Below, in pieces: positions 1 through 43,887 of a stretch of 43,990 nt of DNA; position 1 is the stretch's first letter, and each line of letters begins with the position of its first letter. The stretch lies in IMG/VR virus record IMGVR_UViG_3300042090_001763, positions 1 to 43,990 of that record. One strand, 5' to 3'. The translations under genes were made by a program, and so were the position numbers. Source of the DNA: a virus. The notes under the pieces were generated by a model, which searched no databases, was not told the origin of the DNA, and saw nothing but the letters and a program-made list of their open reading frames with translations.

Positions 1-481
1 CGATGGGGTGGCCGAGGGTGTGGTAGCGATCAACGATAAGCTGGGCTACTTCCTGGGTTTCGTCGGTGGAGTCGTCGAGAACCTGGATCTGGAGGAGGTC
101 GGGGGGGTAGTCGATTTTGCAGACCGCGTCGATGAGGCGGTCGATCACGAACTGCTCGTTGAAGATGGGGAGCTGGATGGTGACGCGTGGGAGCTGCGTG
201 AAGCGGGAGGGCGGCTCGTGGGTGGCGTTTTTGCGGTTGTGGTAGTAGAGCCAGACCAGGGTGTAACGGTGGAAGCCGTACATCGCGAGGATGATCATCA
301 CGATGAAGTAAGGGGTGAGGAGGGCGGTATCGAAGGAGAAGAGCTGCCAGTGGTAGAGGTTCTGGAAGGTGCGGTCGCCGTAGTGGGTGCGGAGGTAGTG
401 CTTGAGGTCGTTTTTGACAAAAAAGAGGGCGAGGGGTTGCGCGCGGGTGAAAAGGAATTGGGTGGCCGCGGCGGAGAGCAT
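1..481 (-). CDS. Family 2 glycosyltransferase, N-terminal part (host gene, runs off window)
   Basis: The first 160 residues are visible; the gene continues beyond base 1. The protein starts at the ATG at 481-479. It has one strong hydrophobic segment (around YFIVMIILAMYGFHRYTLVW), a short cytoplasmic stretch, then the GT-A entry typical of processive GT2 enzymes: LPRVTIQLPIFNEQFVIDRL followed by QVLDDSTDET, which supplies the first nucleotide-sugar-binding aspartates. By family it should transfer a sugar from an NDP-sugar to a membrane-associated polysaccharide or glycan acceptor, resembling cellulose/mannan-synthase-like enzymes. The acceptor cannot be told from this fragment. It lies outside the predicted prophage and reads away from it, so it is chromosomal; the prophage end sits 163 bases upstream of its start. 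Confidence 0.8.
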   Translation of the reverse strand, partial: MLSAAATQFLFTRAQPLALFFVKNDLKHYLRTHYGDRTFQNLYHWQLFSFDTALLTPYFIVMIILAMYGFHRYTLVWLYYHNRKNATHEPPSRFTQLPRVTIQLPIFNEQFVIDRLIDAVCKIDYPPDLLQIQVLDDSTDETQEVAQLIVDRYHTLGHPI

Positions 482-643: not shown

Positions 644-665
644 TGTGCAAGTTAAATTGCACAAC
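644..665 (+). repeat. Left prophage end, transposase-site L1
   Basis: The site starts TGTGCAAGTTAAAT and ends TTGCACAAC. It matches the reverse complement of 43842-43863 at 19 of 22 positions and of 43866-43887 at 16 of 22. The TG start and the position outside all phage genes fit the terminal binding site of a Mu-family transposase. A second copy of the full site is not seen next to it on this side. Confidence 0.7.
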
Positions 666-931
666 TGAGGGCGTGAGACTTGGATTGCCGCACCTAACTT
701 ACTGATTCCACGTAGAGCAAGCCTCTAAATCCAAGTCTCACCAAAACCAGCGCAAAACCGCGCCGGCGGCGTCACCTGTGGAAAACTCCAAAAAGCCGCG
801 TCACCAGAGGGTCCGGATGGCTGTAGGAATCCAAGTCTCACCCCGACTTTTGGCCCTGTCAAGGGCAAATCCGCGTGTCCATCCGAGTCTCACTTCCAAA
901 AACTGTAGGCACGCCCCCTTTTTTGGGCGCG
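666..931. other. Left-end non-coding region of the prophage
   Basis: About 270 bases without a credible gene. It carries four copies of the GTGAGACTTGGATT repeat, an inverted copy of CTGTGGAAAACTC (776-788), and the hairpin that ends the leftward fibre operon. In Mu the corresponding stretch holds the spaced L2/L3 transposase sites; these repeats may play that role, but their sequence differs from L1. Confidence 0.55.
673..893. repeat. Four copies of the 14-bp repeat GTGAGACTTGGATT
   Basis: Copy 1 reads forward at 673-686. Copies 2 and 3 are inverted and identical over 15 bases (AATCCAAGTCTCACC) at 728-742 and 828-842, exactly 100 bp apart. Copy 4 is inverted with one change (ATCCGAGTCTCAC) at 881-893. 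I noticed no further copy in the window. The cluster sits within 250 bases of the prophage end, which suggests a role in the transpososome or in binding a phage or host regulator. Confidence 0.8.
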
Positions 932-932
932 C
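909..932 (-). terminator. Hairpin terminator at the end of the leftward fibre operon
   Basis: Directly after the stop of the 775-residue protein, the transcript can fold CGCCC against GGGCG (925-929 with 912-916) around an A-rich loop, extended by two more pairs across a mismatch. In the leftward direction a run of five Ts follows about 12 bases later, so it is an imperfect rho-independent terminator. In the rightward direction the loop itself supplies six Ts. Confidence 0.45.
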
Positions 933-3259
933 TACTTCGTCCGCAAGCCCGTATCCACCGGCGTGCCACACCCTGAGGGTGCGGTGGTGCCCCAGTACAC
1001 CTGATACGGGGAGTTGGGGCAGCGGTAAATCACGTTTGTTCCCCCACCGACATAGGCATTCCCTCCGTGTGTCCAGAGCGCTACCGTCCCCGCGTTGGCG
1101 ATGGTGCAGTCGGCGCTGCCGCCCGAAGAGTAGGCGCAATTTATCAGCCCCCCGGACGCGCCCCCGGTTGCGTTTCCAGACTGAGCGCTTATGGAAATCG
1201 AGTTGTAATCCGTGGCGTTGGAATAGGCATAGAGGTGGCCACCACTCAACCAGGTAGTGCCGATGTTCCCGTTCGCCCACAGGTTCCCCTGGCGGTTGGG
1301 GACGTTCGCTCCATTGGTCCCTGTGAAGGTTTCCACCCCACTAACGTCTAAGCCAGACACGCTGGTAGTTCCGGTCACGCTCAGCGCGCCGCCCACCGTT
1401 ACCGCGCCACCGACACCGAGCGTCCCCGCTACACTCGCGTTGCCTCCCCCGTCACTATTGGCGGCTACGTTGAGGTTTCCGCCCACAGCCAGGCCGCCAT
1501 AGGGCTGCAGTGCGGTGTATTGTGCCAACCACCCCTCATTGATGCCGAAGAACTCCGGGCCGTTTCCCACGATGGGCCCGTTAAACTCATCCCCGTAAAT
1601 CGTGGTTGTGCTGTTGATGTACCCCACGCAGTCCAGGCACTTGTTCTGCGAGGTTGGGTCATTGACCGCAATGGCGGCGCTATTGGACCCCGACATGTAC
1701 GGGTGAACGATCAGGTTTCCCTTGATGCCGTTGTTATTGTCGATCTGCACGGCGGCCACGGCGGTGGTGGTGCCCGACTCGTTGCGAAGGGAGTTGATCT
1801 GGTTCCCGGAGGCTACGCCGCCCCCTGTCGACTGATAACTCAGGTGAACGGAGTAGTAGCGCCAATTCTCCCCATCCACTGAAAAGATGGTGTTGTTGTT
1901 CGCGCAGTCCAGGAGGAAATTGGTGCCATAGTTTTGAATGCTGCCACCCAGCCAGTGATTGTCATTGGAGCAGGACCCCGTGCTGCTGCTGTCCGTGGCG
2001 TAAACCGCCACGTCGTTAGCTGTCGTGGAGTCGTCGTACATCGTGTTGGCGATGAAGTCGTTGTTGTAATCACCGCCGTTGACCGCGTAGTTCGCCCCAT
2101 CCTGGGTGATGACGGGGTGGGCGTTCCCGTTGGAGTGCCAGTTGGTTCCATCGAATCGGCTCCAGAGGATACCCTTCAGGTTCAGGGCGCCCAGAGCGCT
2201 GGAGTCCTGCGAGATATCGAACGTGCAGCCCAGCACCGTCACGTTACGCACAGAGGTGTTTCCCGTCGTCGCGCCCGCGTTGGCGTTTTGCAGCAGCCAC
2301 ACCGCGGCCGCCGTGGACTTCAGCTGGATCACAGACCCCGTGGATGCTCCTACGACATCGGATGCCGCACAGCGTATCTGCAGCCCTGAGCAGAGTCCGA
2401 TGTTCCCGGCGGTGGGATAGACCCCCGCCGGGAGATAGACGGAGCGGCTGCTGCTCGCGCAGGCGGAGGCTATGGTTGTGGCGGGGTCGCTGCTGGCCGG
2501 CGCCACCCACTCGCCGTTGACCTCAGGAGCCGTTATGGGACCTTCAATCGCCTGGGCAGCGGTTGTATTCGTGTGCACGGCGTTGGAATCGGTCCCCGCT
2601 GGCGCGGTAGGGATCCCAAAGTTCCACACCGCGTTCGTGGACGTGCCGCTGTTGGTCACAGTGGCGGTGCTGCCGGTCGGTCCCTGCGTTACGGTTCCGA
2701 CTGACATGGTTCCCGATGGGCCTTGCGGTCCCTGCGGGCCGTACTGCGTCGTCGCCAGCGCGGTCTCGTTCGGCTGGTAGTTGTCGAAGTTGCAGGTATA
2801 GACGCTGCTCACCACCGAGCACCAGTTCGAGTTCATCTGCACGCAGTTGTAGCCGCTTTGAAAGCCTTCCGTGCCGCCACCCAGCACCGTCGATCCATCG
2901 GAATTGTCGGTGACCTTGATGTTGTAGCAGACATTCGCCGGCGTCGTGACCTGAGAGTTCGCGAGCTGGTACGTCGCGGCGCCATCGACGGGCGACGTGA
3001 TCGCGCCGCTCACCACGTTCGCGCACTTCGTCTTTGTGCCCGCGTTGCCGCCGCCGGATACCAAAAACGGGATCGGCTGGGTATTGTTGTTGACGGGCTG
3101 CGCGCAAAACTGGCCGGAGGGCAGCAACGTCCCCTGGGCATCCACGATCTTGCTGGCGGTGATCACGGCGTAGGGTTGCGTCTGTGCAATGGCGCAGGGC
3201 AGCAGCGGCGCGGCCAGCGCTCCGAGGAGGAATAGTCGCGGTTTCGCAGTTAGTTTCAA
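932..3259 (-). CDS. Exported collagen-triplet/beta-helix fibre-like protein (775 aa)
   Basis: I chose the TTG at 3259: GAAGG precedes it, it overlaps the upstream stop as TTGA, and it gives a classic signal peptide (basic start, FLLGALAAPLLPCAIAQ). An ATG six codons upstream (3277) is the alternative. After the signal comes a Cys-containing beta-rich domain of about 140 residues sharing CY, CVQ, NWC and FDxYxPN with the neighbouring 629-aa protein. A short collagen-like stretch (GPQGPQGPSG, about residue 172) follows, then a long Asn/Gly/Thr-rich region with YLPAGVYPTAG that looks like a pectin-lyase-type beta-helix, and a C-terminal tail-fibre-like part. The architecture resembles phage tail fibres and spikes, but a Sec signal is unexpected for a virion protein made in the cytoplasm. 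It could be a receptor-binding fibre or a lysogen surface protein. Confidence 0.75.
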   Translation of the reverse strand: MKLTAKPRLFLLGALAAPLLPCAIAQTQPYAVITASKIVDAQGTLLPSGQFCAQPVNNNTQPIPFLVSGGGNAGTKTKCANVVSGAITSPVDGAATYQLANSQVTTPANVCYNIKVTDNSDGSTVLGGGTEGFQSGYNCVQMNSNWCSVVSSVYTCNFDNYQPNETALATTQYGPQGPQGPSGTMSVGTVTQGPTGSTATVTNSGTSTNAVWNFGIPTAPAGTDSNAVHTNTTAAQAIEGPITAPEVNGEWVAPASSDPATTIASACASSSRSVYLPAGVYPTAGNIGLCSGLQIRCAASDVVGASTGSVIQLKSTAAAVWLLQNANAGATTGNTSVRNVTVLGCTFDISQDSSALGALNLKGILWSRFDGTNWHSNGNAHPVITQDGANYAVNGGDYNNDFIANTMYDDSTTANDVAVYATDSSSTGSCSNDNHWLGGSIQNYGTNFLLDCANNNTIFSVDGENWRYYSVHLSYQSTGGGVASGNQINSLRNESGTTTAVAAVQIDNNNGIKGNLIVHPYMSGSNSAAIAVNDPTSQNKCLDCVGYINSTTTIYGDEFNGPIVGNGPEFFGINEGWLAQYTALQPYGGLAVGGNLNVAANSDGGGNASVAGTLGVGGAVTVGGALSVTGTTSVSGLDVSGVETFTGTNGANVPNRQGNLWANGNIGTTWLSGGHLYAYSNATDYNSISISAQSGNATGGASGGLINCAYSSGGSADCTIANAGTVALWTHGGNAYVGGGTNVIYRCPNSPYQVYWGTTAPSGCGTPVDTGLRTK

Positions 3260-5145
3260 CTGATCACCTTCAGCCATCCGGAGGCTGTGTATTGATCCGT
3301 GCTGTTACTGGAGAAGCCTTCTATGTTGATGACCGTGGAGGTCCCCACAGAAGTTGAAGATGCCCCATGAAGAAGGTAGGCCGTCGCCGTGTACTGATAG
3401 AAGCTATAGGCGTAAAACGCATTTGCGGCTCCGAAATCCAGAGTGGTTTGTATAGCCAGACAGCTCGTAGCACTCGTAAGGCTGATGCCACCGCTTGATC
3501 CTCCGACTTCGCTTCCCGCCACGAAGAGCCCGAGCGCGATATTCCCTGAGTTGCCCGAGACCCCACACACCACGGTGTGCAGTTCAATTACCGTGTTGGC
3601 CGCCGGAGTGATTCCCAGAGCGGGACAGCGCGAGAGGATGTTCCACCCGGAGCTGGCAGTAAACGCGGCCTTGAAGGAGCAGGCAACAGACTGCACGCCA
3701 TAGCCCGGGACGCCATTTAGCGTGGTTGCATTGACAGAATTAGAACCTCCGGAGTTGCTCGCGAACGTCTCCGCAGTCGACTGCGCGGTTGCGGCCGCTC
3801 CCGACGCATCGTAGACGCCGGGTCCAATGCCGCTCTGCAGCTGTGCCGAGGTCGCCGCCGTGTCAGCGCTGCCGCCGTTGGCGTAACGCACGCCGGTCAG
3901 CGATGTCGTTCCTGTGCCTCCGGCGGCCGCTGACAAAGTGCCGGTCACCTGCGAAAAGGCCACCTGCGCGCAGGTGGGGCCGCTGGTCGCGTCGGCGGTC
4001 TCGTAGTAGCCGGTAGTGCAGACACCGGTGCCAGCACGCCCAGCCGCGGCGCCCGTCGCAGCCGTATTGGCAAATGCATCCGTAGCGACCTTGGTGGAGC
4101 TGTCGGCAGCGATCTGCGTCGTCGCCGTCGTACCCGAAGGCAACGCACTGGCTGCGCTCAGGGAGCCGGAGCTTCCGCTGGTGTTCGCCGCGTTGTTCGG
4201 AATGTCCGCGCTGACCAGCGCCGGCAGCTGCGCGTGCGGCAGAGTCCCCGTGTCGATGTTGCTGGCGTTCGCGCTGAAGGCCTCCGCGTTGGACTGCGCG
4301 GTTGCGGCCGCGCCTGACGAGTCGTACACCTCCGAGCCAATCGCCGACTGCATCTGCGCCGAGGTGGCCGCCTGCACCGTGGATCCGTTGCCGGCCAGCA
4401 CGCCGCTGAGGCTCGTCGCCGTCGACGTGCTCACACTGTTCGGCCCAGCGGCGCCGGTTGCACCGGTTGCTCCCGTTGCCCCTGTGGCGCCCTGGGCACC
4501 GGTTGCTCCGGTTGCTCCTGTGGGACCCTGTGGGCCGGTTGCTCCTGTGGCTCCCTGTGGGATCGTGAGGCTGAGTTCGTAGTTCGGCGCCACACCGCCG
4601 ATCGATGCCGCGGCGGAGCTGCCGGGGGCTCCTGTCGTCACCGCGCCAACGGACAACGTCGGCGCTTCCACCAGGGCGATGGCAGCCGCATTCGGTGGAT
4701 ATTGATCGAAGTCGCAGGTACCGCTCTGGCACCAGTTGTTCGGCTCTGTGGTATTCCACGCGGGCTGCACACAGGAGAGCGGCGAATTCGCGCCGCCCAT
4801 GAGCAGATTGCCGGAATCGTCGAAGACGGTGACCTGGTAACACGGATTGGGCGGCCACGCGAGGCTTGTGTCCGCGACCTGCAGGGAAAAAGCGCCGTTC
4901 GTGATCGGCGCTGTCACTGGCAACGCTGCCGCCTGCCCATTGCCGTTCACGCGAAAGGCGAGCGGCGCGCCCGTGCTCGTGACCGGCTTCCACCAGATCG
5001 TCCCGCTCGGAATGAGCGTCGGGGTGCTGGCCCCGCCGGCGAGCTGAAGGTGGCTGCCCGTCACGGTCACGTAACCCGTCTGCGCGATCGCTGCAGACGT
5101 GGAGAAAGCCAGAAGCACCGCGAGGAAGGGACGCGCGAGACGCAT
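3256..5145 (-). CDS. Exported collagen-triplet fibre-like protein (629 aa)
   Basis: The start at 5145 gives a clean signal peptide (MRLARPFLAVLLAFSTSAAI, cleavage after AQ); the frame is open further upstream, but that part lacks any signal. The N-terminal domain shares CYQVTVFDDSGNLLMGG, CVQ, NWC and FDQYPPN with the 775-aa neighbour, so the two are paralogues with different C-terminal parts. Residues 193-235 are Gly-X-Y triplets (GATGATGPQGPTG and so on). The middle has phrases common in phage tail fibres (DSSTKVATDAFAN, GGTGTTSLTGVRYANG). The C-terminal domain is beta-rich and unrecognised. A 57-bp repeat fills the gap between the upstream stop (5213) and this start. The stop overlaps the next start. 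Confidence 0.78.
   Translation of the reverse strand: MRLARPFLAVLLAFSTSAAIAQTGYVTVTGSHLQLAGGASTPTLIPSGTIWWKPVTSTGAPLAFRVNGNGQAAALPVTAPITNGAFSLQVADTSLAWPPNPCYQVTVFDDSGNLLMGGANSPLSCVQPAWNTTEPNNWCQSGTCDFDQYPPNAAAIALVEAPTLSVGAVTTGAPGSSAAASIGGVAPNYELSLTIPQGATGATGPQGPTGATGATGAQGATGATGATGATGAAGPNSVSTSTATSLSGVLAGNGSTVQAATSAQMQSAIGSEVYDSSGAAATAQSNAEAFSANASNIDTGTLPHAQLPALVSADIPNNAANTSGSSGSLSAASALPSGTTATTQIAADSSTKVATDAFANTAATGAAAGRAGTGVCTTGYYETADATSGPTCAQVAFSQVTGTLSAAAGGTGTTSLTGVRYANGGSADTAATSAQLQSGIGPGVYDASGAAATAQSTAETFASNSGGSNSVNATTLNGVPGYGVQSVACSFKAAFTASSGWNILSRCPALGITPAANTVIELHTVVCGVSGNSGNIALGLFVAGSEVGGSSGGISLTSATSCLAIQTTLDFGAANAFYAYSFYQYTATAYLLHGASSTSVGTSTVINIEGFSSNSTDQYTASGWLKVIS
4441..4566 (-). 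repeat. Coding collagen-like Gly-X-Y repeat tract
   Basis: A degenerate 9-base repeat (GGNGCNACN on the minus strand) encodes GAT and GPQ/GPT triplets in the 629-aa protein. It is not a CRISPR: units abut and stay in frame. Such tracts vary in length by slippage and make triple-helical stalks. Confidence 0.85.
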
Positions 5146-5155
5146 GCTGCTTTGA

Positions 5156-5212
5156 GCATCGCGCGAGCGAGGGCGAACCAGTGCGAGAGACGCGACGGCT
5201 GCGAAAGCCGGT
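5156..5212 (-). promoter_or_regulatory. Module-boundary repeat, copy T2
   Basis: This 57-bp stretch fills the gap between the stop at 5213 and the region before the start at 5145. It aligns with 5901-5957 with about ten substitutions and no gap. The best-conserved core (5183-5207, minus strand) contains CCGTCGCGTCTCTCGC and is shared with 19375-19398. A second conserved part (TTCGCCCTCGCTCGCGCGAT) lies next to the start codon in the two leftward copies only. A shared control site for late or fibre genes is the likeliest reading; a REP-like repeat is the alternative. Confidence 0.6.
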
Positions 5213-5893
5213 CTAGGGAATCGCAGCCACATACGTGTTCGAGGGCGCCGACTCGATTCCCGAGGCGTCCACGCTGCGGACCTCGTAGCTGTACACCAGG
5301 CCATCGGCCGCCGTCGTATCGATGTAGCTCGTCTCCGTCACCGGTTCCGAGTTCAGCAGAGCCCAGGTGGTGCTGCCGCTGAGCGCCCGATAGACGTGGT
5401 AGCCCGCCACCGGATCGGCCGCTGCGGCCGGCGCGTCCCAGGTCAGCTCGACATCGTAGGGGATCGGAGGAGGTTCGCCGATCGCCGAACCGTAGATCAG
5501 AATCTTCGGGCTGGTGGCGTTCGTGGCGATGGTCAGCGAAGCACCCACCAGCGTTCCGGTCACCGTGGGATCCCAGGTAACGCTGATCACCGTGCTCGCC
5601 CCCGGCTGGAGGGTGACAGGCAGGCTGTCGGAGACAGAGAGGCCCGCGCCGGAGATGGCGGCGCCGGTGACGTTCAGCGGTGCGGTGCCTGAGGATGTAA
5701 CGGCGATTTTCGAGACTTCAGCCTCGCCGAGGATGACGTTGAGGAAGGCGATGCCGGTCGCGGAGAGCTGGGTTCCCGTAGTGGATCCGGCGGCCGCAGA
5801 GAGACGCAGGGCGGGCTCGCCCCGATGACGACCCTGCGCATGAACGCCGAGCGCGGCCAGAACGAGGATGAGAGCGAAGAGCCGGATGCGCAT
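5213..5893 (-). CDS. Secreted choice-of-anchor/fibronectin type III protein (226 aa)
   Basis: The ATG at 5893 gives a strong signal peptide (MRIRLFALILVLAALGVHAQ). Residues of about 30-130 resemble the choice-of-anchor D/ASPM-type beta sandwich: LSATGIAFLNVILGE near the start, VTSSGTAPLNVTG in the middle, then VTWDPTVTG. The last 85 residues form a fibronectin type III domain (VELTWDAPAAA, GYHVYRA, YSYEVRSVDASGIES). Both folds are common in exported Acidobacteriota proteins and bind proteins or glycans. It is the first of three exported proteins downstream of the early operon and is preceded by the boundary repeat. A virion-decoration, adhesion or lysogenic-conversion role is possible; the sequence does not decide. 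Confidence 0.78.
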   Translation of the reverse strand: MRIRLFALILVLAALGVHAQGRHRGEPALRLSAAAGSTTGTQLSATGIAFLNVILGEAEVSKIAVTSSGTAPLNVTGAAISGAGLSVSDSLPVTLQPGASTVISVTWDPTVTGTLVGASLTIATNATSPKILIYGSAIGEPPPIPYDVELTWDAPAAAADPVAGYHVYRALSGSTTWALLNSEPVTETSYIDTTAADGLVYSYEVRSVDASGIESAPSNTYVAAIP

Positions 5894-5900
5894 GTGCGCA

Positions 5901-5957
5901 GCATCGCGTGAGTGAGGGCGAAGGCGGGCGAGAGGCGCGACGGATGCGGAAGGCGCG
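5901..5957 (-). promoter_or_regulatory. Module-boundary repeat, copy T1
   Basis: This occupies the gap between the stop of the excisionase-like gene (5958) and the start at 5893. Its core (5928-5952, minus strand) differs from copy T2 in three positions and contains CCGTCGCGCCTCTCGC. The flank next to the start codon is also conserved with T2. It marks the border between the early chain and the exported fibre genes, where a separate promoter would be expected if these genes are expressed late. Confidence 0.6.
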
Positions 5958-6206
5958 TCAGAACCTCTTCTCCAGTCCGTTCCGCTCGTGCAGCTTTTCC
6001 ACGTAGGCCAGCAGCGAATCGTAGCTGATCCGCCAGGGGCTGCTGGGCTTGTCGGGGCGCACCTTGTACGCCTTCAGCGTCCCGTCCTCGCACATCCGCG
6101 AGATCGTGTCATGGGAGACGTCGAGGATCTCCGCAGCGCGCGTGGCGCTCACCGTGTACCTCGGGCTCCACGGCAGCAGCAGCTGATCGGGAACGCGAAA
6201 GCTCAT
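5958..6206 (-). CDS. Excisionase/MerR-type helix-turn-helix protein (82 aa)
   Basis: The middle of the protein reads YTVSATRAAEILDVSHDTIS followed by RMCEDGTLKAYKVRP and SSPWRISYDSLLAYVEKLHE. This is the winged-helix pattern of the HTH_17/excisionase family: helix-turn-helix, a wing with GTLKAYKV, then W-R-I followed by a long helix. Such proteins bind DNA, acting in phages as excisionases or small regulators. It is the last gene of the early chain, and its start overlaps the upstream stop by four bases. No partner recombinase is present apart from the DDE transposase, so a transcriptional role is more likely than a recombination directionality role. Confidence 0.75.
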   Translation of the reverse strand: MSFRVPDQLLLPWSPRYTVSATRAAEILDVSHDTISRMCEDGTLKAYKVRPDKPSSPWRISYDSLLAYVEKLHERNGLEKRF

Positions 6207-13116: not shown

Positions 13117-13361
13117 ACGGACACCTCTTCGCCGGTATGCCGTTTCACGAATGCGACCAGCGCCGCCGCGACAGCCAGCGCCTGATCGACATCGAGGTGC
13201 GCGGCGCCGGCGAAATTCACACCCGGCTCAGAGATAAAGAGCCACAGCGAAGCAGCTTCCTCCGTGCTGGAATCCCGCAGCGTCAGGCGCTCGCCGTGGA
13301 TGCCCATCAGTTCCGGGCCTTCCTCGGCGTCGCGCACGCGTGTGAAGCGGCGATGCGTCAT
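13113..13361 (-). CDS. Unknown early protein (82 aa)
   Basis: The ATG at 13361 overlaps the stop of the MuB-like gene. The sequence has RLTLRDSSTEEAASLWLFIS, then AAHLDVDQALAVAAALVAFV, and looks like a small beta-then-alpha domain with no metal or membrane motif. I do not recognise it. The position right after A and B resembles where Mu carries small accessory genes. Confidence 0.58.
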   Translation of the reverse strand: MTHRRFTRVRDAEEGPELMGIHGERLTLRDSSTEEAASLWLFISEPGVNFAGAAHLDVDQALAVAAALVAFVKRHTGEEVSV

Positions 13362-14401
13362 GCGGGGACCTCGATTCTTTCCTCGGCCGGTTCCGGCTGC
13401 GCGGCGGCCAGCGCCTCGCGTGCTTCGCGCAGCGCCGCCATCAGCCGGCCGATGGAGATGTAGCGCTGCTTCTGGCGGCGCACCGCAACTTCCACGGTGG
13501 CCAGCTCGATCTGCTGCTGGACCAGCGAGCTGTCGACGCCAGCACAGACCGGCTCCAGCTCGCTGCGCACAATGCCCGCCGCTTCCTCGCGCGTGACCGC
13601 CGGCAGCGTGACCTTGTCGGTGACGCGGCGTTCGAGCTGCTCCAGCGTGCCCGCAAACTTCGAGAAAATCTGATCCAGCTCATGGCTGCCGGTGAAGATC
13701 AGCGAGAACCCGCCCTGGTCGAACAGCTCGCGCACCGTCTCCAGACAATCGATCGAGAGGTGCTGCGCCTCGTCGAATACCAGCGCCACCCTCTGTCCGC
13801 GAAACTCCCAGAGGATGTTCTGCAGGATGCGGTCGATTTCGCCGGCAATCGAAGTTCCGCAGGCCTGCGCCACGCGGCGCAGCAGATCGCGGGGCCGGAT
13901 GCCGGCGCGGCAGTAGATGTGGAAGAGGTGGCGCGCTCGCTCGGCGTGTGCCGCCGTCCGGTTGTGCTCGGCGATCAGCCCGCGCGTGACGTCGGTTTTG
14001 CCCGAGCCCGGCGGCGCGTAGACCATGAAGATCTGCGGGCGATCCAGAACCCGCGCGAAGATCTGCCGCAGACAGCGCACGTTGCCGATCTCGTAGAGCT
14101 TGCCGGTGAAGCTGCCGGTGGGCTGGATCGGATAGCGCTCCATGAATTCGAGCAGCGCCGCGCAGATCGGCGAGTCGTCGCCGCCGACGTTCTCGTAGCG
14201 GTCGGTGAGGAACTTCTGCAGCGTGGTGTAGCCGTAGCCGATGCGATGGGCAAAATCGGCGGTGGCCATCCCCGTCCGGTTCAGATACGCGCGCGCCAGC
14301 TCCTGCACGCGGTGGCGGCGGTCCGCCGTGCGTTCCAGCTGCGCGATTTTGCGCAGGTGCTCGGGGCTGGCGTGACGATTGCGGGTGCCGGCGACTCTCA
14401 T
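13358..14401 (-). CDS. MuB-like AAA+ transposition target/activator protein (347 aa)
   Basis: The start at 14401 overlaps the transposase stop as ATGA; the frame is open upstream but only as a shadow. Residues of about 40-90 form a small HTH (MATADFAHRIGYGYTTLQKF). The ATPase follows: Walker A APPGSGKTDVTR (Lys about 135), Walker B VALVFDEAQHL (Asp 210), then sensor-like LIFTGSHELDQIF. MuB-family proteins bind target DNA as ATP filaments, activate the transposase and give target immunity. The related transposon proteins IstB and TnsC share the fold. The pairing with the adjacent DDE transposase makes the assignment firm. Confidence 0.88.
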   Translation of the reverse strand: MRVAGTRNRHASPEHLRKIAQLERTADRRHRVQELARAYLNRTGMATADFAHRIGYGYTTLQKFLTDRYENVGGDDSPICAALLEFMERYPIQPTGSFTGKLYEIGNVRCLRQIFARVLDRPQIFMVYAPPGSGKTDVTRGLIAEHNRTAAHAERARHLFHIYCRAGIRPRDLLRRVAQACGTSIAGEIDRILQNILWEFRGQRVALVFDEAQHLSIDCLETVRELFDQGGFSLIFTGSHELDQIFSKFAGTLEQLERRVTDKVTLPAVTREEAAGIVRSELEPVCAGVDSSLVQQQIELATVEVAVRRQKQRYISIGRLMAALREAREALAAAQPEPAEERIEVPA

Positions 14402-16473
14402 TTGCGGAGGCCCTCCAGAAGAACGCGTGCGGCCTGCGCGGGCGTCGGGGGAGCTGCGCCCGCTGCAGGGTGGGCGGGGGAAGGAGATTGCGGCCGATGC
14501 GTGAGCACCGGCGCGATGGAGTGCGGAGCTTTGGCGGTACGGACCAGCGCCTCGATCGGCGAGTCGGCGCCGGCGGAGCGCGCGGCTGCGGCGATCCCGT
14601 CGACCACGCGCCGCGTCTCTTTTTCCAGATGCCGGCGGTCCGCCATCGAGTCGGCGATGCGCTGCTGCACGGTCGCGTCGGCCGGGTTGAAGCCGATCAT
14701 CTCCTTCAGCCGCGCGCCGCACAGGAAATGCCCGTCCAGATCGAGCACCGCAATCTCGGCGGGATCGTTCGGGTCCCACGCGGCCATCGCTTCGCGCTCC
14801 GTCATCTCGTGGAGCGCGTCGCGTCCGAAGGCGTCGGCATAGGTGTAGCGGCGGCGGTTGAGCCGGATCTCGCATTCGCGCACGCGGCATGTCGTGCGCT
14901 CCGGCAGCAGCAGCGCGAGCATTTCCGGGCCTTCCGGGAGGCGGCCTGCGACGCGCTCCGCAAAGACTTCCTCCGGCGTGCGGTTGTCCATCCCTTCGCC
15001 GGTGTGCGGCGTCTGGTGATACTCCTCGATCCACGCCATGCAGGCGGCGATCACCTGGCTCGCCGAAGGATGGGTCGATGCTTCGAGACGGCCGTGCTTC
15101 AGCGCCTTGCGGTGGACGGCCATCGCTGTGCTGGTCGCGTCCGGGCGCAGATGCGGAGCGCCGCCGGTGTAGTGCTCCCAGAAGAGCTTGTCGAAGCGGT
15201 CATGCACGGTGCCGAAGAACCGCTCGACGTGCTTGGACTGCGGATGGCGCACGATGCAGTGCGTGACCGTCACGCCGAGCCGGGCCAGCAGCCCGAGCTT
15301 CTCGATCTGCGCCATCTCGGTGTCGGCCCAGCCCCGGATCGCGGCCGGATCGCTGAGGTACGCGGGGATGGCTCCCTTCGTGACCTTGAGATAATCCTTG
15401 CCGTTGTCGCAGTAGAAGTGCTGGCAGATGCCCCACTGCGCGATAGCGCGGCGCAGGGCGGTCGCGATCGAGCGCGAGCTTTCGTGCGGCGCCCAGCTCG
15501 CGCCCACCACGAACCGCGACCGGAAGTCGAGCAGGCAGGTAAAGCGCAGGCGCAGGGGCGCGCCCCACGGCATCTCCGGGAAGCAGTCGTTCCACGCTTC
15601 CACGTCGTGCAGCATGTGATCGCTCACCCAGATCTCGTTGGGCTGCACGTCGCGGTAGTGGCGGGTGAGGTAAGGGGCGAAAGTCTCGCGATAGCGGCGC
15701 TGCCCTTCCCGCGCGTAAGTTTCCAGATAGGGCGGCAGCGACTTCAGCCAGCGGCGGACGGTCTGGTAATGGGGCAGATCGTGCTCGGCGAGGCCCAGAC
15801 GCTCGCGCTCGCGCAGGATGGCTTCGAAGCAGGCGCGGCAGTTCTGCTGGTACTTGAGATAGAAGGCGGCGGCGAGCAGCGCGGCCTCGCGGTGATCGTC
15901 GAACCACCGGCTCTGGTCGCGGTCGCTGCGTTTGCGGTCGGCCAGCGCCGGGAATCCGCCGGCGCGGTAGCGGGCCAGCCAGCTGTTCAGCGTGCGCACG
16001 CCGTTGCCGCTCTCCTCCGCCTGACGAGCGATCAGCTGCGACTTCGACGTGATGCCGAGCTGCTGCCAGCGGACGCGCTCCTGGGCGTAGTGGAGGATCG
16101 GTTCGAGGATCGCGTAGCGCTTTTCGGCCTGGCGCTGATCGTCCGGATCGGGCAGCACGATGCGCTCGGAAGGTGGCTGGCTGGCGAAGAGCGGCGCCTG
16201 CATCCCCAGTTGCGGCGCGCTCGCCTCGACAGAGGACGATTCGCCAGCCAGCTTGTCGGCGGCGTCGGCGGGAATCGACGCGGCCAGATATTCGCGAAGA
16301 CGGCGGCCATTCGGGCCGCCCTGCGCCGCAACGCGGGAGACCAGCTCGCGGCGGCGCCGGAACAGCGTGCTGCGCGACCAGCCGGTCCGCGCCAGCACAT
16401 CCTCGGCGGTGAGCCAGCCCTCGTGCGCGGGCACAAGGTAGAGCATCGGGGCAGCTGCCGTCTGCGTGCTCAT
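14398..16473 (-). CDS. MuA-like DDE transposase (691 aa)
   Basis: The N-terminus has a Mu-type winged HTH (LTAEDVLARTGWSRSTLFRR). The catalytic core carries D285 (IWVSDHML), D356 (FYCDNGKDY) and E417 (KHVERFFGT); the spacings of 71 and 61 residues resemble MuA's. After the core comes a beta-barrel-like region (CRVRECEIRLNRRRYTYADA). The length is close to MuA's 663 residues. The enzyme nicks both phage ends and joins them to target DNA, both to integrate and to replicate. Its sites should be the repeats at 644 and 43842-43887. It overlaps the upstream gene and the MuB-like gene by four bases each. Confidence 0.93.
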   Translation of the reverse strand: MSTQTAAAPMLYLVPAHEGWLTAEDVLARTGWSRSTLFRRRRELVSRVAAQGGPNGRRLREYLAASIPADAADKLAGESSSVEASAPQLGMQAPLFASQPPSERIVLPDPDDQRQAEKRYAILEPILHYAQERVRWQQLGITSKSQLIARQAEESGNGVRTLNSWLARYRAGGFPALADRKRSDRDQSRWFDDHREAALLAAAFYLKYQQNCRACFEAILRERERLGLAEHDLPHYQTVRRWLKSLPPYLETYAREGQRRYRETFAPYLTRHYRDVQPNEIWVSDHMLHDVEAWNDCFPEMPWGAPLRLRFTCLLDFRSRFVVGASWAPHESSRSIATALRRAIAQWGICQHFYCDNGKDYLKVTKGAIPAYLSDPAAIRGWADTEMAQIEKLGLLARLGVTVTHCIVRHPQSKHVERFFGTVHDRFDKLFWEHYTGGAPHLRPDATSTAMAVHRKALKHGRLEASTHPSASQVIAACMAWIEEYHQTPHTGEGMDNRTPEEVFAERVAGRLPEGPEMLALLLPERTTCRVRECEIRLNRRRYTYADAFGRDALHEMTEREAMAAWDPNDPAEIAVLDLDGHFLCGARLKEMIGFNPADATVQQRIADSMADRRHLEKETRRVVDGIAAAARSAGADSPIEALVRTAKAPHSIAPVLTHRPQSPSPAHPAAGAAPPTPAQAARVLLEGLRK

Positions 16474-16880
16474 CGGCTGGCCTCGGTGTCTCTGAAGATC
16501 AGCCCGATATTGGCCGTCAACTCATCGCGGAGGGCCAGGCGCCTTGGACCATCTGCGAGCTTGCGCGCATAAAAGTAGACGCTGCGTGCAGCGCGCAGAG
16601 CCACTCGCGTCCGCAGATCGCTGGATCCGCATCGCGTCGCATTGAGAATGTCGTCGAACGGGCAGCCCCAAACTTCCGCGAGCAGCGTGTCGTTGACGTT
16701 GAGTCCGAGCTTCATTCCGCGCAGACGGCGGCCGTCGCTGGTGACCTGCGGGTCATCGGCCGGGTCAAAAACCGGCTGATCCTTCGACTGCATCTGTTCG
16801 GCGATGCGGTCAGAGAAGAGGACCGCGATGGCAGCGCAGGCGATGTCGAGAGCCATTCCGAAGCGGTCAGAGGTTTTCAC
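16470..16880 (-). CDS. Unknown early protein upstream of the transposase (136 aa)
   Basis: The GTG at 16880 overlaps the upstream stop as GTGA, giving VKTSDRFGMALDIACAAIAV. The centre reads GMKLGLNVNDTLLAEVWGCP followed by FDDILNATRCGSSDLRTRVA. It is mostly helical with no signal or membrane span long enough to count. Its place between a regulator and the transposase is shared with other Mu-like phages. Function not recognised. Confidence 0.6.
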   Translation of the reverse strand: MKTSDRFGMALDIACAAIAVLFSDRIAEQMQSKDQPVFDPADDPQVTSDGRRLRGMKLGLNVNDTLLAEVWGCPFDDILNATRCGSSDLRTRVALRAARSVYFYARKLADGPRRLALRDELTANIGLIFRDTEASR

Positions 16881-17359
16881 AGGTCCACCCCTCCGAGCCG
16901 CTTCTCGATCCGTTCGGCCTGCTCGTCCGCGCGTTTGCGCACCAGATATTGGCGGCCCAGCTCCATGAGGTCCCTTTCTTCTGCTCCGATCACAAACAGA
17001 CCGGCCTTGAGGACGCGACAGGTCAAGAGGGAGTTGTCGGAGACGGCAGCGCAAAAGGCGCGATCCCAGGCGGAGGGGAACCGGTTGGGCTGCATCACCT
17101 CGGAGGTGTAGTTGTTCAGCATTTTCGCCGTCACGCGCACGCCGAGCATGATCGTCATCCCATCCGCGATCTGCTCACGGCTCAGGGAGCAGGACTTGAT
17201 GGCTGCGGAGATCGTGTCCCGCACGAGCTGATCGTCGTTGAATGAACCCGGCTCCTGGCCGAAGGGCAGCTCATTTTGTTTGGGAAAACGCTGTTGCAGA
17301 TTACTTATTGGCGAGGCGGATGCTGGCCCGCTAGATTGACCGTGCCATGGTTTTTTCAC
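16877..17359 (-). CDS. Conserved early phage protein of the transposase operon (160 aa)
   Basis: The GTG at 17359 overlaps the upstream stop (GTGA). The core SREQIADGMTIMLGVRVTAK, with MLNNYTSEVMQPNRFPSAWD, RAFCAAVSDNSLL and LKAGLFVIGAEERDLMELG, matches a family common just before the transposase in Mu-like phages, where a regulatory or DNA-binding role is supposed. SREQIADGM to KMLNNYTS has HTH-like spacing. The C-terminus is a charged helix (KRADEQAERIEKRLGG). Translation from an internal start is possible, since the first 35 residues look unstructured. Confidence 0.68.
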   Translation of the reverse strand: MKKPWHGQSSGPASASPISNLQQRFPKQNELPFGQEPGSFNDDQLVRDTISAAIKSCSLSREQIADGMTIMLGVRVTAKMLNNYTSEVMQPNRFPSAWDRAFCAAVSDNSLLTCRVLKAGLFVIGAEERDLMELGRQYLVRKRADEQAERIEKRLGGVDL

Positions 17360-18742: not shown

Positions 18743-19363
18743 ATGAAAGGAATGAAGGCGTTTTGCTCTGTGATCGCACTGGCCTCCCTCGGGATCGCCG
18801 GGGGATGTCGAACGGGCTCGCCGGCCGCCGAGGCACAGAAGGGCACCCCTGTTTTGAGGCAGATGCTGAGCCGCACAGACAGAGTGATCGTGAAGAACTT
18901 CTACACCCCGATGCCATTGGCAGAGGAAGCCCAGGGGGGCCTGACTCCAGGCTTCGCGAAGATCGGCGGCGTGTGGGTCTATCCTGCGGGCGACCGCACC
19001 CACGGGGAACGAGGTGGTTCGATTGAACTCCGATCCAGCGGCTACTACAGCGATGGGACTATCCCGCATGGGTTCGAGCACGCGATTGCCTATCTCGACC
19101 TGGGGGAGATGCAGGATCTCGATACGTCTCTCACCTACTTCGCCGGCACGCGGAGCGTCTGGAATTTGAATTCCAGCGCGAAGGAAGTCGAGGCTGACTT
19201 CGCGACCAAAGACGGCCTGAGTGTTTCGGCCTTTACTGTGGAGCACAAGCCGGTCGTTTTCCTGAGCGACGGCTCAGCGCAAGTGGAGATCCCATTCGAC
19301 AGAATCGGGGAGATCCAGAGCGCCGTCCGCAACGCGATCAAAGACGCCCAGTCCGAACAGTAA
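18743..19363 (+). CDS. Predicted lipoprotein, possible lysogenic cargo (206 aa)
   Basis: The N-terminus MKGMKAFCSVIALASLGIAG followed by GCRTG is a lipoprotein signal with a lipobox ending in G-G-C, about residue 22. The mature part is soluble and beta-rich (LTPGFAKIGGVWVYPAGDRT, EHAIAYLDLGEMQDLDTSL, VVFLSDGSAQVEIPFDRI). I recognise no family. The gene stands alone between the repressor unit and lysis with its own AT-rich upstream region, the typical place of a moron expressed in the lysogen. Superinfection exclusion or an envelope role are the first hypotheses. Confidence 0.72.
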   Translation: MKGMKAFCSVIALASLGIAGGCRTGSPAAEAQKGTPVLRQMLSRTDRVIVKNFYTPMPLAEEAQGGLTPGFAKIGGVWVYPAGDRTHGERGGSIELRSSGYYSDGTIPHGFEHAIAYLDLGEMQDLDTSLTYFAGTRSVWNLNSSAKEVEADFATKDGLSVSAFTVEHKPVVFLSDGSAQVEIPFDRIGEIQSAVRNAIKDAQSEQ

Positions 19364-40428: not shown

Positions 40429-43400
40429 ATGCCGAACTCCTCCAGCACCGTCGTCGTCGATTCGAGCCAGACCACCAACGCGCCGGCCGCGCTCGCCTAT
40501 GGCTTCGTGTGGGTGACGGGCAAGCGGCTGGAGTATTACATGCTCCAGAACACCGGCAACTCGAATCTCGATTTCACGCGTGTGGGCTTCTGGGCGCTCG
40601 GCGAGGGCGAGTGGGACGGCTGCGAGGAGTTGTGGATCAACGACGACTTCGTGTGGGGCTCGGAGTATGACGACCCTTCGCAATTCCACTTTCACCGCGG
40701 CGCGGATTCGGTGATCGGGACCGGCGTCACCGATTTCAGTTCGGTCGGCCCCGACCAGGGCACGGACTCCTTCTGGCAGTATTTCCCTTCGGCCGTCAAC
40801 CCGCTGAACTACAGCCGCCTCGCCTATTACGGCATCTTCCGCAAACAGCCGATCGAGAATCAGACCAACAACCACCAGAACGATCCGACGCAGTGGACCG
40901 ACGTGAGCCCCATCGGCCTGTGGCGTTCGCTGCGCGTGCGCCTGTTCGATGATGAGGGAAATCAGACCGGCTATGCCTTCACGCGCAATCCGGTGTGGCA
41001 CTGGGTGGACCTGAAGCTGCGGCGGAAGATTTTCCCCGAATACAACATCGATCTCACCAACGGGATCGCCGCAGTTCCCGCTGCGTGCCTGGCGCGCTTT
41101 AACTGGGCCGATATCTACGCGAGCGCGACTTACTGTGGCCAGTTACTCGCCAACGGCCGCCCGCGCTTCAGCGGCGATTACGCCTTCGCGCAGCAGACCA
41201 CCACCACCGCAATCGAGGAAACGATGCTGCGCAGCTGCCGGGGATTCACGCGCGAGAACGCCGGCAAAATCTCTCTGCTGATCGACCAGCCGCGGTCCTC
41301 GGTGTTCACCTTCAATCGGACGCACATCATGCCGGGGAGCTTCGCGCCCAGCGATAAAACGGCGAGCGCCGCGGCGAACTCTTACGTGGGCAAGTTCCGC
41401 GATCTGCTGGTCCCCTCAATCGCCGAGATCGCCAGCATCACCTGCTCGGATCATCGCTCGAATCCCGTGGTGGCATTCACGGCGCCGCATCCCTTCAACG
41501 CCGGCGATCGAGGCGCGATTGGCGGCACCGATACCATCTACGACGGCGTGTGGACCGTGGCCAGCGTTCCGGCGGGCACACAGCCAACGACGCTGGCCCT
41601 TGCGACGAAGGGATCGAATTATCCGGCCGGCCCCGTGGGCGCGGGCGGCGTGATGGGGCTCCTCTATTCGCGCTTCAAGGAGCGGGCGCCGACCTTCTGG
41701 CATCAGAACAATCAGTACGCGCGCGGGGCGGTCGGCGTGGGGATTCCGCGCCAGCTCAACGCGGTGCCAGTCAGCTACGACTTCTGCGTGAGCACCTTCG
41801 ATCAGGTCAGCCGCATCATGCGCTACGAGCGCGATCGCGCGCTCGGCCTCGATGTCGCGCCCTATGTGACGCCGCCCGCCTTCACGTTCAAATGCCCGAT
41901 GTACGCGCTCGACGGCGCGGGAAGCGGTGCGGTCGCATGTCAGATCCAGGAAGGCGATCGCGTCACGTTCGACTCGACTGCCGACTATGCCTATCAGGGG
42001 GATTACGAAGTCCTCGACGTCGAGGAATCGCCCTTCACCAGCGCGCCGGCGGCCGGTGACGGATCGATCGCGCAGAGGGCGGATCCGGAAGGAGGACAGA
42101 CCTCCCTCACGCTGGGCGCTTTCAACGAAGCGTATATGTACGACACCACCGACCCGAACTCGGCGAGCTGGAGCAATGTGCCGGGCAGCGACCCCGGCAA
42201 CGATGGCGACTACACCGCGATCGATCTGGCCGACAACGGCCAGCTCGCTTTCCTGACGCTTTCGCTGGCCAGCGGTGCGACGTTCGACCTTCCCTCGTCG
42301 GGATTTAATCCTGCCAATTTGATCGGCTGGGCTGGGCCACAGGGTTACCTTGAGACCAACAACGTGATGCATGTGATCGCGTTGTGCGACGTGGACACCG
42401 CGACCCGGCGCTGCACCCTGCAATACGAAGACGGGCAGAACGACGTTTGGAACGGCGATGTAAACGTCGCGGCGGCGACGTGGACCGGCGACAGCACTGC
42501 GGCCACTTTGAGCACGGCAACGGTCGGTGGCGAGCCTTTTCAGTGGCTCGTCTGCACACTCGCCGGCGGCGAGGTGATCGCTTTCGGCTGCGGCGTCGTC
42601 CCGGATGGAACCGTCATCGATCTTCCCGCCGGATTCAGCTGGTACGCAACGGATGGAGTCACGCCGAAGGCGTTCGCGGTCGCATTTCCGCACGATGCGT
42701 CGCCCAGCGAAGCAGGAGCGTCGGGCAATCAGGCGCACGGCGTCGGCGCCTATGTGGACTCGACCTCTGCGACGGTCACCGCGGATGGCGGCGCGGTCGC
42801 GCACCTGAACTATCAGGATGGCTCGGGACATACATGGCACGGGAACGCGAGAGTGCTGATCTTCGCGTGGAAGAACAATAGCGGCGGCGTCTCGATCTCG
42901 ACCTCGGGCGGTCTGACCTGGATGGAGTACACCACGTCGACGGGCTTTGTGCTCGGCGTCGGGATGGGCACGTTCGAAGACAGCACGGCGATGGCGCTCC
43001 CTGCGGCCGCCGGTCAGGGAAATTCGTTGCAGGTGATCGCCGGCCCGCACGATTTTGAGATCGTCGATCACCCGGCGCATGGAGTGGGCGCCTGCTATGT
43101 CGATGCGCAGCTCACCGTGCATTGCATGTTCGAGGATGGCGAGGGAAACCAGTGGACGGGGCACGCCGACGTATTCGCCTTGTTTTATGAGCCCACGGGC
43201 GGCAGCGGCACGAATGCGGGCGGGATTTCGGTGACCGTCACCCCGGCGGGTGCCAGTATTCCGCCCAGCACCACGCAGCAGTTTACGGCGATGGTGGCCG
43301 GCTCATCGAATACCGCGGTGAACTGGAGTGTCGATGGGGTCGCGGGAGGCAATTCCACGGTGGGAACCATCGACACAACAGGGCTCTACACAGCGCCGGC

Positions 43401-43812
43401 GACGAACGGCACCCATCAGATCACCGCGACCAGCCAGGCAAATTCGGCAGCTGAGGGCTGGCAGTTTGTGCAGGTCGGGACTGGATCGAGCGGCAGCGGC
43501 GGCAGCGGGGTCCAGGTCGTGGTTTCGCCGGGGAACGCCAGCGTGCCGCTGGGTGGAACCCAGCAGTTCGCCGCGACGGTCAGCGGAGTGACGGGGTCCT
43601 ATACGGTGGCATGGGCGGTGAACGGGATCGTCGGCGGCAACTCGACGGTAGGCACAATCAGCACCTCCGGTCTATATACTGCTCCGTCAACCTCGGGGGG
43701 TGCGAGTGTTACCGCCACCGTCAACGGCACGGTGGGCGGCGCGAGCGTCATCATCGGCAATCCAGGGGGCGAGTACGGGGGTGGCGGGGGGAGGCCGATC
43801 ACCACCTCCTGA
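40429..43812 (+). CDS. Large tail-tip/central fibre protein with C-terminal repeats and Ig-like domains (1127 aa)
   Basis: The N-terminal 530 residues have tail-hub features: AYGFVWVTGKRLEYYMLQNT, DDPSQFHFHRGADSVIGTGV, SGDYAFAQQTTTTAIEETML, FDQVSRIMRYERDRALGLDV. Then come three beta-repeats of about 105-130 residues, each ending in a motif like YEDGQNDVWNG (about 665), YQDGSGHTWHG (794) or FEDGEGNQWTG (900). Two Ig-like (Big-type) domains close the protein: ISVTVTPAGASIPPSTTQQF (from about 929) and VQVVVSPGNASVPLGGTQQF (from about 1027). The Ig-like folds are typical of Acidobacteriota surface proteins, so this is probably the main receptor-binding protein. It is the last gene before the right end. 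Confidence 0.83.
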   Translation: MPNSSSTVVVDSSQTTNAPAALAYGFVWVTGKRLEYYMLQNTGNSNLDFTRVGFWALGEGEWDGCEELWINDDFVWGSEYDDPSQFHFHRGADSVIGTGVTDFSSVGPDQGTDSFWQYFPSAVNPLNYSRLAYYGIFRKQPIENQTNNHQNDPTQWTDVSPIGLWRSLRVRLFDDEGNQTGYAFTRNPVWHWVDLKLRRKIFPEYNIDLTNGIAAVPAACLARFNWADIYASATYCGQLLANGRPRFSGDYAFAQQTTTTAIEETMLRSCRGFTRENAGKISLLIDQPRSSVFTFNRTHIMPGSFAPSDKTASAAANSYVGKFRDLLVPSIAEIASITCSDHRSNPVVAFTAPHPFNAGDRGAIGGTDTIYDGVWTVASVPAGTQPTTLALATKGSNYPAGPVGAGGVMGLLYSRFKERAPTFWHQNNQYARGAVGVGIPRQLNAVPVSYDFCVSTFDQVSRIMRYERDRALGLDVAPYVTPPAFTFKCPMYALDGAGSGAVACQIQEGDRVTFDSTADYAYQGDYEVLDVEESPFTSAPAAGDGSIAQRADPEGGQTSLTLGAFNEAYMYDTTDPNSASWSNVPGSDPGNDGDYTAIDLADNGQLAFLTLSLASGATFDLPSSGFNPANLIGWAGPQGYLETNNVMHVIALCDVDTATRRCTLQYEDGQNDVWNGDVNVAAATWTGDSTAATLSTATVGGEPFQWLVCTLAGGEVIAFGCGVVPDGTVIDLPAGFSWYATDGVTPKAFAVAFPHDASPSEAGASGNQAHGVGAYVDSTSATVTADGGAVAHLNYQDGSGHTWHGNARVLIFAWKNNSGGVSISTSGGLTWMEYTTSTGFVLGVGMGTFEDSTAMALPAAAGQGNSLQVIAGPHDFEIVDHPAHGVGACYVDAQLTVHCMFEDGEGNQWTGHADVFALFYEPTGGSGTNAGGISVTVTPAGASIPPSTTQQFTAMVAGSSNTAVNWSVDGVAGGNSTVGTIDTTGLYTAPATNGTHQITATSQANSAAEGWQFVQVGTGSSGSGGSGVQVVVSPGNASVPLGGTQQFAATVSGVTGSYTVAWAVNGIVGGNSTVGTISTSGLYTAPSTSGGASVTATVNGTVGGASVIIGNPGGEYGGGGGRPITTS

Positions 43813-43887
43813 AAATGGAATGTGCACGCTATTTGGCAGAGGTTCTGCCATTTAATTTGCACAATGTTGTGCCAAACAATTTGCGCA
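43813..43887. repeat. Right prophage end, tandem transposase sites R1-R3
   Basis: Reading inward from the end, R1 (43866-43887) begins TGCGCAAATTG and ends GGCACAAC; R2 (43842-43863) begins TGTGCAAATTAAATGG and ends GCAGAAC. They stand 24 bp apart, as MuA sites R1 and R2 are adjacent in Mu. R2 matches L1 (644-665) at 19 of 22 positions. A weaker third copy (43818-43839) keeps CAAAT and GCACA. The region is AT-richer than the rest of the phage. Confidence 0.75.

Follow-up and report, generated by a model that had tools for sequence, protein, structure and literature searches.

Tail fibres determine the host range of phages, and the cytoplasm is generally held to be the place of their assembly and attachment. 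The IMG/VR record IMGVR_UViG_3300042090_001763 (43,990 bases, analysed at full length and called here the window) contains a Mu-like prophage with three leftward genes, ORFs 1 to 3, whose products carry predicted Sec signal peptides; in ORFs 1 and 2 this signal precedes a domain with the predicted fold of a virion-anchoring domain of tail fibres. The same N-terminal anchoring-domain fold is found in the shoulder domain of gp34 of cyanophage A-1(L) (PDB 8KEC; PMC10966104). Unlike the window proteins, gp34 is a baseplate fibre of a cyanophage myovirus, and its modelled chain begins at residue 1, which indicates no cleaved signal peptide. Minor tail proteins and fibres of actinophages (BlueFeather, BRock, Gordonia and Corynebacterium phages; BFVD) also resemble the predicted fold and some have collagen, hydrolase or pectate-lyase modules, but they share only about 11-23% identity with the window domain. 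Lambda Lom is likewise a phage-encoded, exported protein with a signal peptide (predicted from sequence in the window family) whose gene lies in the tail-fibre region, but it is an outer-membrane beta-barrel without a virion-anchoring domain. PblA and PblB of Streptococcus phage SM1 are tail proteins that also reach the cell surface, though of a Gram-positive host, and their release was reported to require the phage holin and lysin (PMC7600539). Sec-exported endolysins (Lys44 of fOg44; SAR endolysins) are Sec-signal phage proteins of the lytic cycle (PMC6116005), but they are lysis enzymes and not virion or fibre proteins. Lom, PblA/PblB and the Sec endolysins show parts of either route, to the virion or out of the cell, and none is an exported fibre.

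ORF2 (positions 3256..5145, minus strand) codes for a 629-aa protein composed of a signal peptide, the anchoring domain, a collagen tract and a tail-fibre-like C-terminus matching PHROG tail fibre families. Its start is probably at 5145 (MRLARPFLAV...) and not at the longest-ORF start, 5304. The signal peptide of 21 aa (5083..5145, minus), MRLARPFLAVLLAFSTSAAIA followed by QTG with the cleavage site between AIA and QTG, precedes the 136-aa N-terminal domain (4675..5082, minus) and a run of 13 G-X-Y triplets (4438..4554, minus; PF01391, 2.1e-6). The protein also carries the motif DSSTKVATDAF, which we take to be typical of tail fibres. ORF1 (932..3277, minus; 781 aa, 19 cysteines in the precursor) overlaps ORF2 by 22 bases and combines a 31-aa signal peptide (3185..3277, minus; MAEGDQLKLTAKPRLFLLGALAAPLLPCAIA followed by QTQ) with the anchoring domain (2753..3181, minus; profile match 2.9e-49, the ORF1 sequence itself being in the profile) and a variable C-terminus. 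The cysteine-bearing N-terminal domain is common to the two proteins (36% identity over 266 residues, E 3e-12; 37% in the domain alignment) and their C-termini are unrelated, a swapping of modules already suggested in the original prediction and recurrent across many phages. The attribution of collagen triplets to both was generous, since ORF1 has only three (GPQGPQGPSG) and a true tract is confined to ORF2. ORF3 (5213..5893, minus; 226 aa) has a signal peptide (5837-5893, minus; MRIRLFALILVLAALGVHA followed by QGR) ahead of choice-of-anchor D/ASH and Fn3-like domains. The choice-of-anchor assignment stands above cutoff (NF012200, 7.7e-12), ASH is matched by PF15780 (1.5e-7) and the proposed Fn3 is sub-threshold. 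Relatives of ORF3 are present in host genomes. The 56-base leader upstream of ORF2 (5155..5210, minus) is 82% identical to the 56-base leader of ORF3 (5900-5955), possibly as a shared control element or a recombination joint. The N-termini of ORFs 1 to 3, previously described as clear signal peptides, each comprise a hydrophobic core between a positive n-region and a site of A-x-A type, recognised by eye and for ORFs 1 and 2 also by a crude rule; by these sequence features they are textbook Sec signal peptides. Among the 41 window genes examined, the others with hydrophobic starts are mostly membrane or lysis-region genes.

A profile of the shared domain picked up family members in Silvibacterium bohemicum S15, in 30 of 298 genomes from its order and in contigs of IMG/VR. 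From 37 fetched regions we scored 44 family genes, almost all of which belong to phages of Acidobacteriota; two truncated genes were set aside. A signal peptide (SP; SP+ and SP- denote family genes with or without one) is predicted in 34 of the 44, 28 by the crude rule and six more by eye, and the ten SP- members have a Met at the start of the domain. A Shine-Dalgarno sequence accompanies the signal peptide ATG in 21 of the 34 SP+ genes; in no case does a Shine-Dalgarno accompany an internal start near the domain, and internal initiation was rejected on this check. Among homologues of other genes from the same loci, no segment of signal-peptide strength was found in 18 tape measure, 15 Dit or 8 capsid-like proteins, nor in the J2-type; by the most generous rule the cut was exceeded in 2/14 homologues of a 184-aa tail protein, 4/13 of J and 1/6 of terminase. 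The Sec signal is, as far as it can be predicted, a widespread feature of the family and not the sign of a non-fibre protein. Scans of IMG/VR with ORF1 and ORF2 as single proteins gave no relatives, and tblastn against phages and plasmids gave chance matches only. Matches to Vibrio phages (E 0.4-0.6) were rejected as concerning a head-region protein, and one to an Eggerthella phage as covering 33 residues only.

Structure prediction of the domain and position of the genes both connect the family to tails. Built from an alignment of 34 sequences, the AlphaFold2 model for the domain of ORF2 is a confident beta-sandwich (pLDDT 91.4, pTM 0.85). Foldseek ranks the tail fibre of cyanophage A-1(L) first among PDB entries (probability 0.99, E 0.023), and VIA-align superposes 99 residues (Z 9.8, 12% identity) on residues 1-109 of 8kec_b, the N-terminal part of the long tail fibre, ahead of the Bxb1 tail-tip protein (Z 8.1) and of other rows at 7.2 and below. 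The shoulder domain of the A-1(L) long fibre, Met1-Ile155, is at the baseplate-anchored end (PMC10966104). The best named matches in BFVD are minor tail proteins and tail fibres of actinophages, with E down to 6e-5. A PDB sequence search with the domain profile yielded nothing significant, hence no sequence-level match to a solved fibre; the virion-attachment domain, and with it any homology to the N-termini of virion fibres, is seen at fold level only. Fold matches to P22 tailspike and Sf6 gp14 were weak, were not among the VIA-align rows shown, and were set aside. According to the model, the shared domain has the fold of a tail-fibre virion-anchoring domain. It is not host-derived.

Many of the 44 scored relatives lie inside tail modules. 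The gene order in lambda-like relatives is tape measure, family gene, Dit (phrog_1302), 184-aa protein, 145-aa protein and central fibre J. The slot between tape measure and Dit is filled by SP+ genes in L063 (S. bohemicum, where Dit was not called), L018, L099, L021 and L065, and by SP- genes in L064, L066 and L068; the SP- genes of L070/71 likewise occupy slots that SP+ genes hold elsewhere. Further SP+ genes separate the 184-aa tail gene from the 145-aa one (L023, L074), follow J (L078, L079, L089, L091 and, with its second family gene, L099) or follow a tail protein of phrog_1101 (twice in L067, with homologues in L082-L086). Two SP+ family genes are present in L067, L084, L085, L099 and the window, and no locus has SP+ and SP- forms together. 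The fetched DNA of L075, L081, L087, L090 and L098 offers no clear phage context. An SP-bearing family protein of 2911 residues with a weak GDSL match sits in the tape-Dit slot of L021 (9896-18631, plus). Signal-peptide proteins that lack the family N-domain adjoin fibre genes in L096 (15342-17255, plus), L078 (2472-4238, minus), L065 (1226-3535, minus) and L099 (12213-13004, plus), so proteins destined for export seem to be frequent in this part of Acidobacteriota phage genomes. Another one (MKIWVPILLCLTCSFGFAQ...) is encoded between head and tape genes of L064 (8041-8928, plus).

In Mu-like phages the family gene takes the left-end position behind the early operon. A transposase query turned up four related Mu-like phage records, and in all four of these sister phages the corresponding position, behind xis-like and GemA-like genes, is held by a family gene. 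The proteins of G001, G002 and G003 begin with MAGYTTVS or MAAGYTTVS, without signal peptide, and have a GDSL-type hydrolase-like region at their end; that of G004 starts with MMRRCALLLFGLLSLPAFA followed by QTGFVTI. When the two forms are aligned, the predicted mature start of the exported forms coincides with the position of the initiator Met of the SP-less ones. The slot beside the xis and GemA-like genes holds SP+ genes in the window, L015, L094 and L096, and SP- genes in L012, L014 and L069. The SP-less fibre gene is followed by one for a 268-aa protein (L064:14348-15154, plus; L012:3875-4681, plus; L014:1300-2106, minus) that is 81-90% identical between Mu-like and lambda-like phages, which points to recent cassette transfer between the two phage types.

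The C-termini are variable and of receptor-binding or enzymatic types: a pectate lyase in L018, a GDSL esterase in SP+ (L063, L067) as well as SP- members (L064, L066), and the collagen tract of ORF2. A model of the ORF1 C-terminus, obtained by AlphaFold2 without alignment, had a pLDDT of 34 and was not used. The N-domain of SP+ members has mostly 2, 4, 6 or 8 cysteines. A WC..C loop occurs in 18/34 SP+ genes vs 0/10 SP- genes (Fisher p 0.003), the mature SP+ proteins have an even number of cysteines in 30 of 34 cases, and the median cysteine density is 1.65 per 100 residues in mature SP+ proteins vs 0.76 in SP- ones. This association between signal peptide and cysteines is suggestive. In the tree the SP- genes form two supported groups and one uncertain long branch nested among SP+ members, and three switches suffice to explain the distribution.

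The anchoring fold and the tail-module slots that are filled by SP-less homologues elsewhere mark these genes as tail-fibre genes first. The observation itself is confirmed with small corrections, and the interpretation in the original prediction is borne out in part. It had by implication opposed Sec signals to virion proteins; this opposition finds no support in that form, given the anchoring fold of the shared domain and the interchange with SP-less homologues in tail-module slots. The last of the three possibilities that it named, by which fibres would be added to particles beyond the cytoplasm, is now the foremost idea, still unproven. From signal peptides, fold, location, slot exchange and cysteine pattern, read in sequences and models, we infer export, cleavage, disulfide formation and docking. 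The reading that we favour, holding the chances for and against it to be balanced, is that ORFs 1 and 2 encode genuine tail fibres or spikes that are synthesised with a Sec signal, leave the cytoplasm, become oxidised and most likely join virions at or after lysis. The signal peptide would be fused in register, so that cleavage would leave nearly the N-terminus that SP-less homologues have at their initiator Met; disulfides would form in the domain once the protein has reached the periplasm; docking onto virion tails would most likely occur when lysis breaches the envelope, and the docked fibre would give the particle receptor-binding and polysaccharide-active parts. ORF3 would belong to this cassette as a small accessory protein of Ig/Fn3 type that is likewise exported. 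Addition of fibres to finished particles is known in vitro for P22 tailspike. The wider proposal, that Acidobacteriota phages have a tail-assembly route leading out of the cytoplasm, with fibres exported via Sec, matured with disulfides in the periplasm and joined to virions no earlier than lysis, is put forward tentatively, with slightly less than even confidence.

Several points weigh against these proposals. Tails assemble in the cytoplasm and we know of no Sec-exported tail fibre; our literature search, with most subscription journals outside its coverage, found no report of one. The family gene follows the early operon in Mu-like phages. Most SP- members have GDSL-type C-termini, so that loss of the signal peptide may track the type of C-terminus, and with only 1-3 evolutionary switches behind it the association with cysteines is not independent support. 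The signal peptide calls come from a crude rule plus six made by eye, and the hydrophobicity cut is exceeded, by the most generous rule, in the four J homologues mentioned above. ORF3-type and other SP+ genes (L096, L078, L099) could be plain secreted cargo. The main rival, which we regard as a serious if rather less probable explanation, extends secretion to the fibres themselves: fibre genes would have been turned into genes for secreted or surface proteins, free or on the envelope of the lysogen or lysing cell and outside the virion, with roles in receptor or polysaccharide modification, superinfection exclusion, EPS clearing or adhesion. It would account for Sec signals that are real, as their sequences suggest, and agrees with the esterase and lyase C-termini, with the small SP+ Fn3 and LamG-like neighbours in L023, L074 and L099, and with the precedent of lambda Lom, exported and encoded between J and fibre genes (PMC12309495). 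The family is nonetheless no Lom-type beta-barrel, its N-domain being modelled as a beta-sandwich and its C-termini being of collagen, lyase or esterase types. The retained virion-anchoring fold, the place of the genes in tail modules, even between tape and Dit, and the same-slot exchange with SP-less fibres also speak against this rival, as does the lack of a co-resident SP-less family fibre in SP+ loci.

That the hydrophobic N-terminus is not used for export at all, staying uncleaved in virion fibres or being bypassed by internal initiation, is improbable in our view. Ordinary cytoplasmic assembly would then explain the tail-module location, but not the n/h/c architecture with A-x-A-type cleavage sites near the domain start, the cysteine enrichment and even counts, or the lack of Shine-Dalgarno internal starts in all 34 genes. 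Least credible by far is an origin of ORFs 1 to 3 as host genes flanking the prophage, or as a host secreted family acquired as cargo. Ig and collagen proteins with a signal peptide are widespread among bacteria, and ORF3 has its relatives in host genomes, but the prophage end motifs and repeats lie outside ORFs 1 to 3, the family gene recurs at the same place in the four sister phages, and nearly every family relative has phage structural genes as neighbours. The end motifs and sister phages led us to reject the host-flank hypothesis.

The Mu-like nature of the carrier is supported by a transposase A with rve and Mu-transpos_C domains (14398..16473, minus; phrog_310, E 9.6e-88) in the leftward early block, a Mu B-like transposition protein (13358..15034, minus, as longest ORF with a later true start; phrog_296, 1.1e-28) and inverted end motifs. 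The left motif TGTGCAAGTTAAATTGCACAA is at 644..664 (plus) and inverted copies TGTGCAAATTAAATGGCA (43846) and TGCGCAAATTGTTTGGCACAA (43867) mark the right end (43846..43887, minus), so that ORFs 1 to 3 fall within the phage, on the stretch from the early operon to the left end; no target-site duplication was seen at the prophage ends. Four ATCCAAGTCTCACC copies (672-, 729+, 829+, 881+; 672..894) separate ORF1 from the left end. Sister phages have several copies of a different repeat, TCCAACGGAACT, at the same place between fibre gene and phage end (L012 about 4690-4950; L014 about 1000-1290). These repeats may be quickly diverging candidate transposase or terminator sites. The early block also holds a leftward regulator (16877-17359). 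An excisionase-like HTH gene (5958..6206, minus; HTH_17, 2.8e-9), 76-77% identical in L003, L004 and L005, is the marker preceding the fibre slot in sister phages. The rightward block codes for repressor, endolysin, terminase, Mu F-like head protein, protease and major head protein, and, by weak matches, for a tape-measure candidate and a large hub-like protein. The latter, a candidate J/hub-like tail protein, is the last late gene (40429..43812, plus; weak phrog_1727 match, 0.001); the tandem Ig-like repeats at its end match the C-terminus of an SP+ family fibre (L080:11882-13246, plus) at 47-50%. Directly ahead of the endolysin gene, 18743-19363 (plus) encodes a predicted phage lipoprotein (MKGMKAFCSVIALASLGIAGGC, lipobox-like) with a weak homologue in sister L003 (30%). 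PADLOC gave no defence match. The host flank outside the prophage contains a fragment of a GT2-like glycosyltransferase gene (2..481, minus; Glycos_transf_2, 4e-4, below cutoff) with relatives of 51-72% identity in 78 of 80 genomes of Terriglobales, the order of Silvibacterium, and we therefore consider the host a Terriglobales-like member of Acidobacteriota.

In phages of soil Acidobacteriota, whose tail-module fibres of this family mostly begin with a predicted export signal, the fibres probably travel by an unusual route, to the particle or to the cell surface. A family in which versions with and without a predicted cleavable export signal replace each other in one gene slot amounts to an experiment made by nature: fibres either can mature outside the cytoplasm, disulfides included, and still reach the virion, or have been turned by phages into secreted proteins. 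The finding would aid annotation of the poorly known phages of Acidobacteriota.

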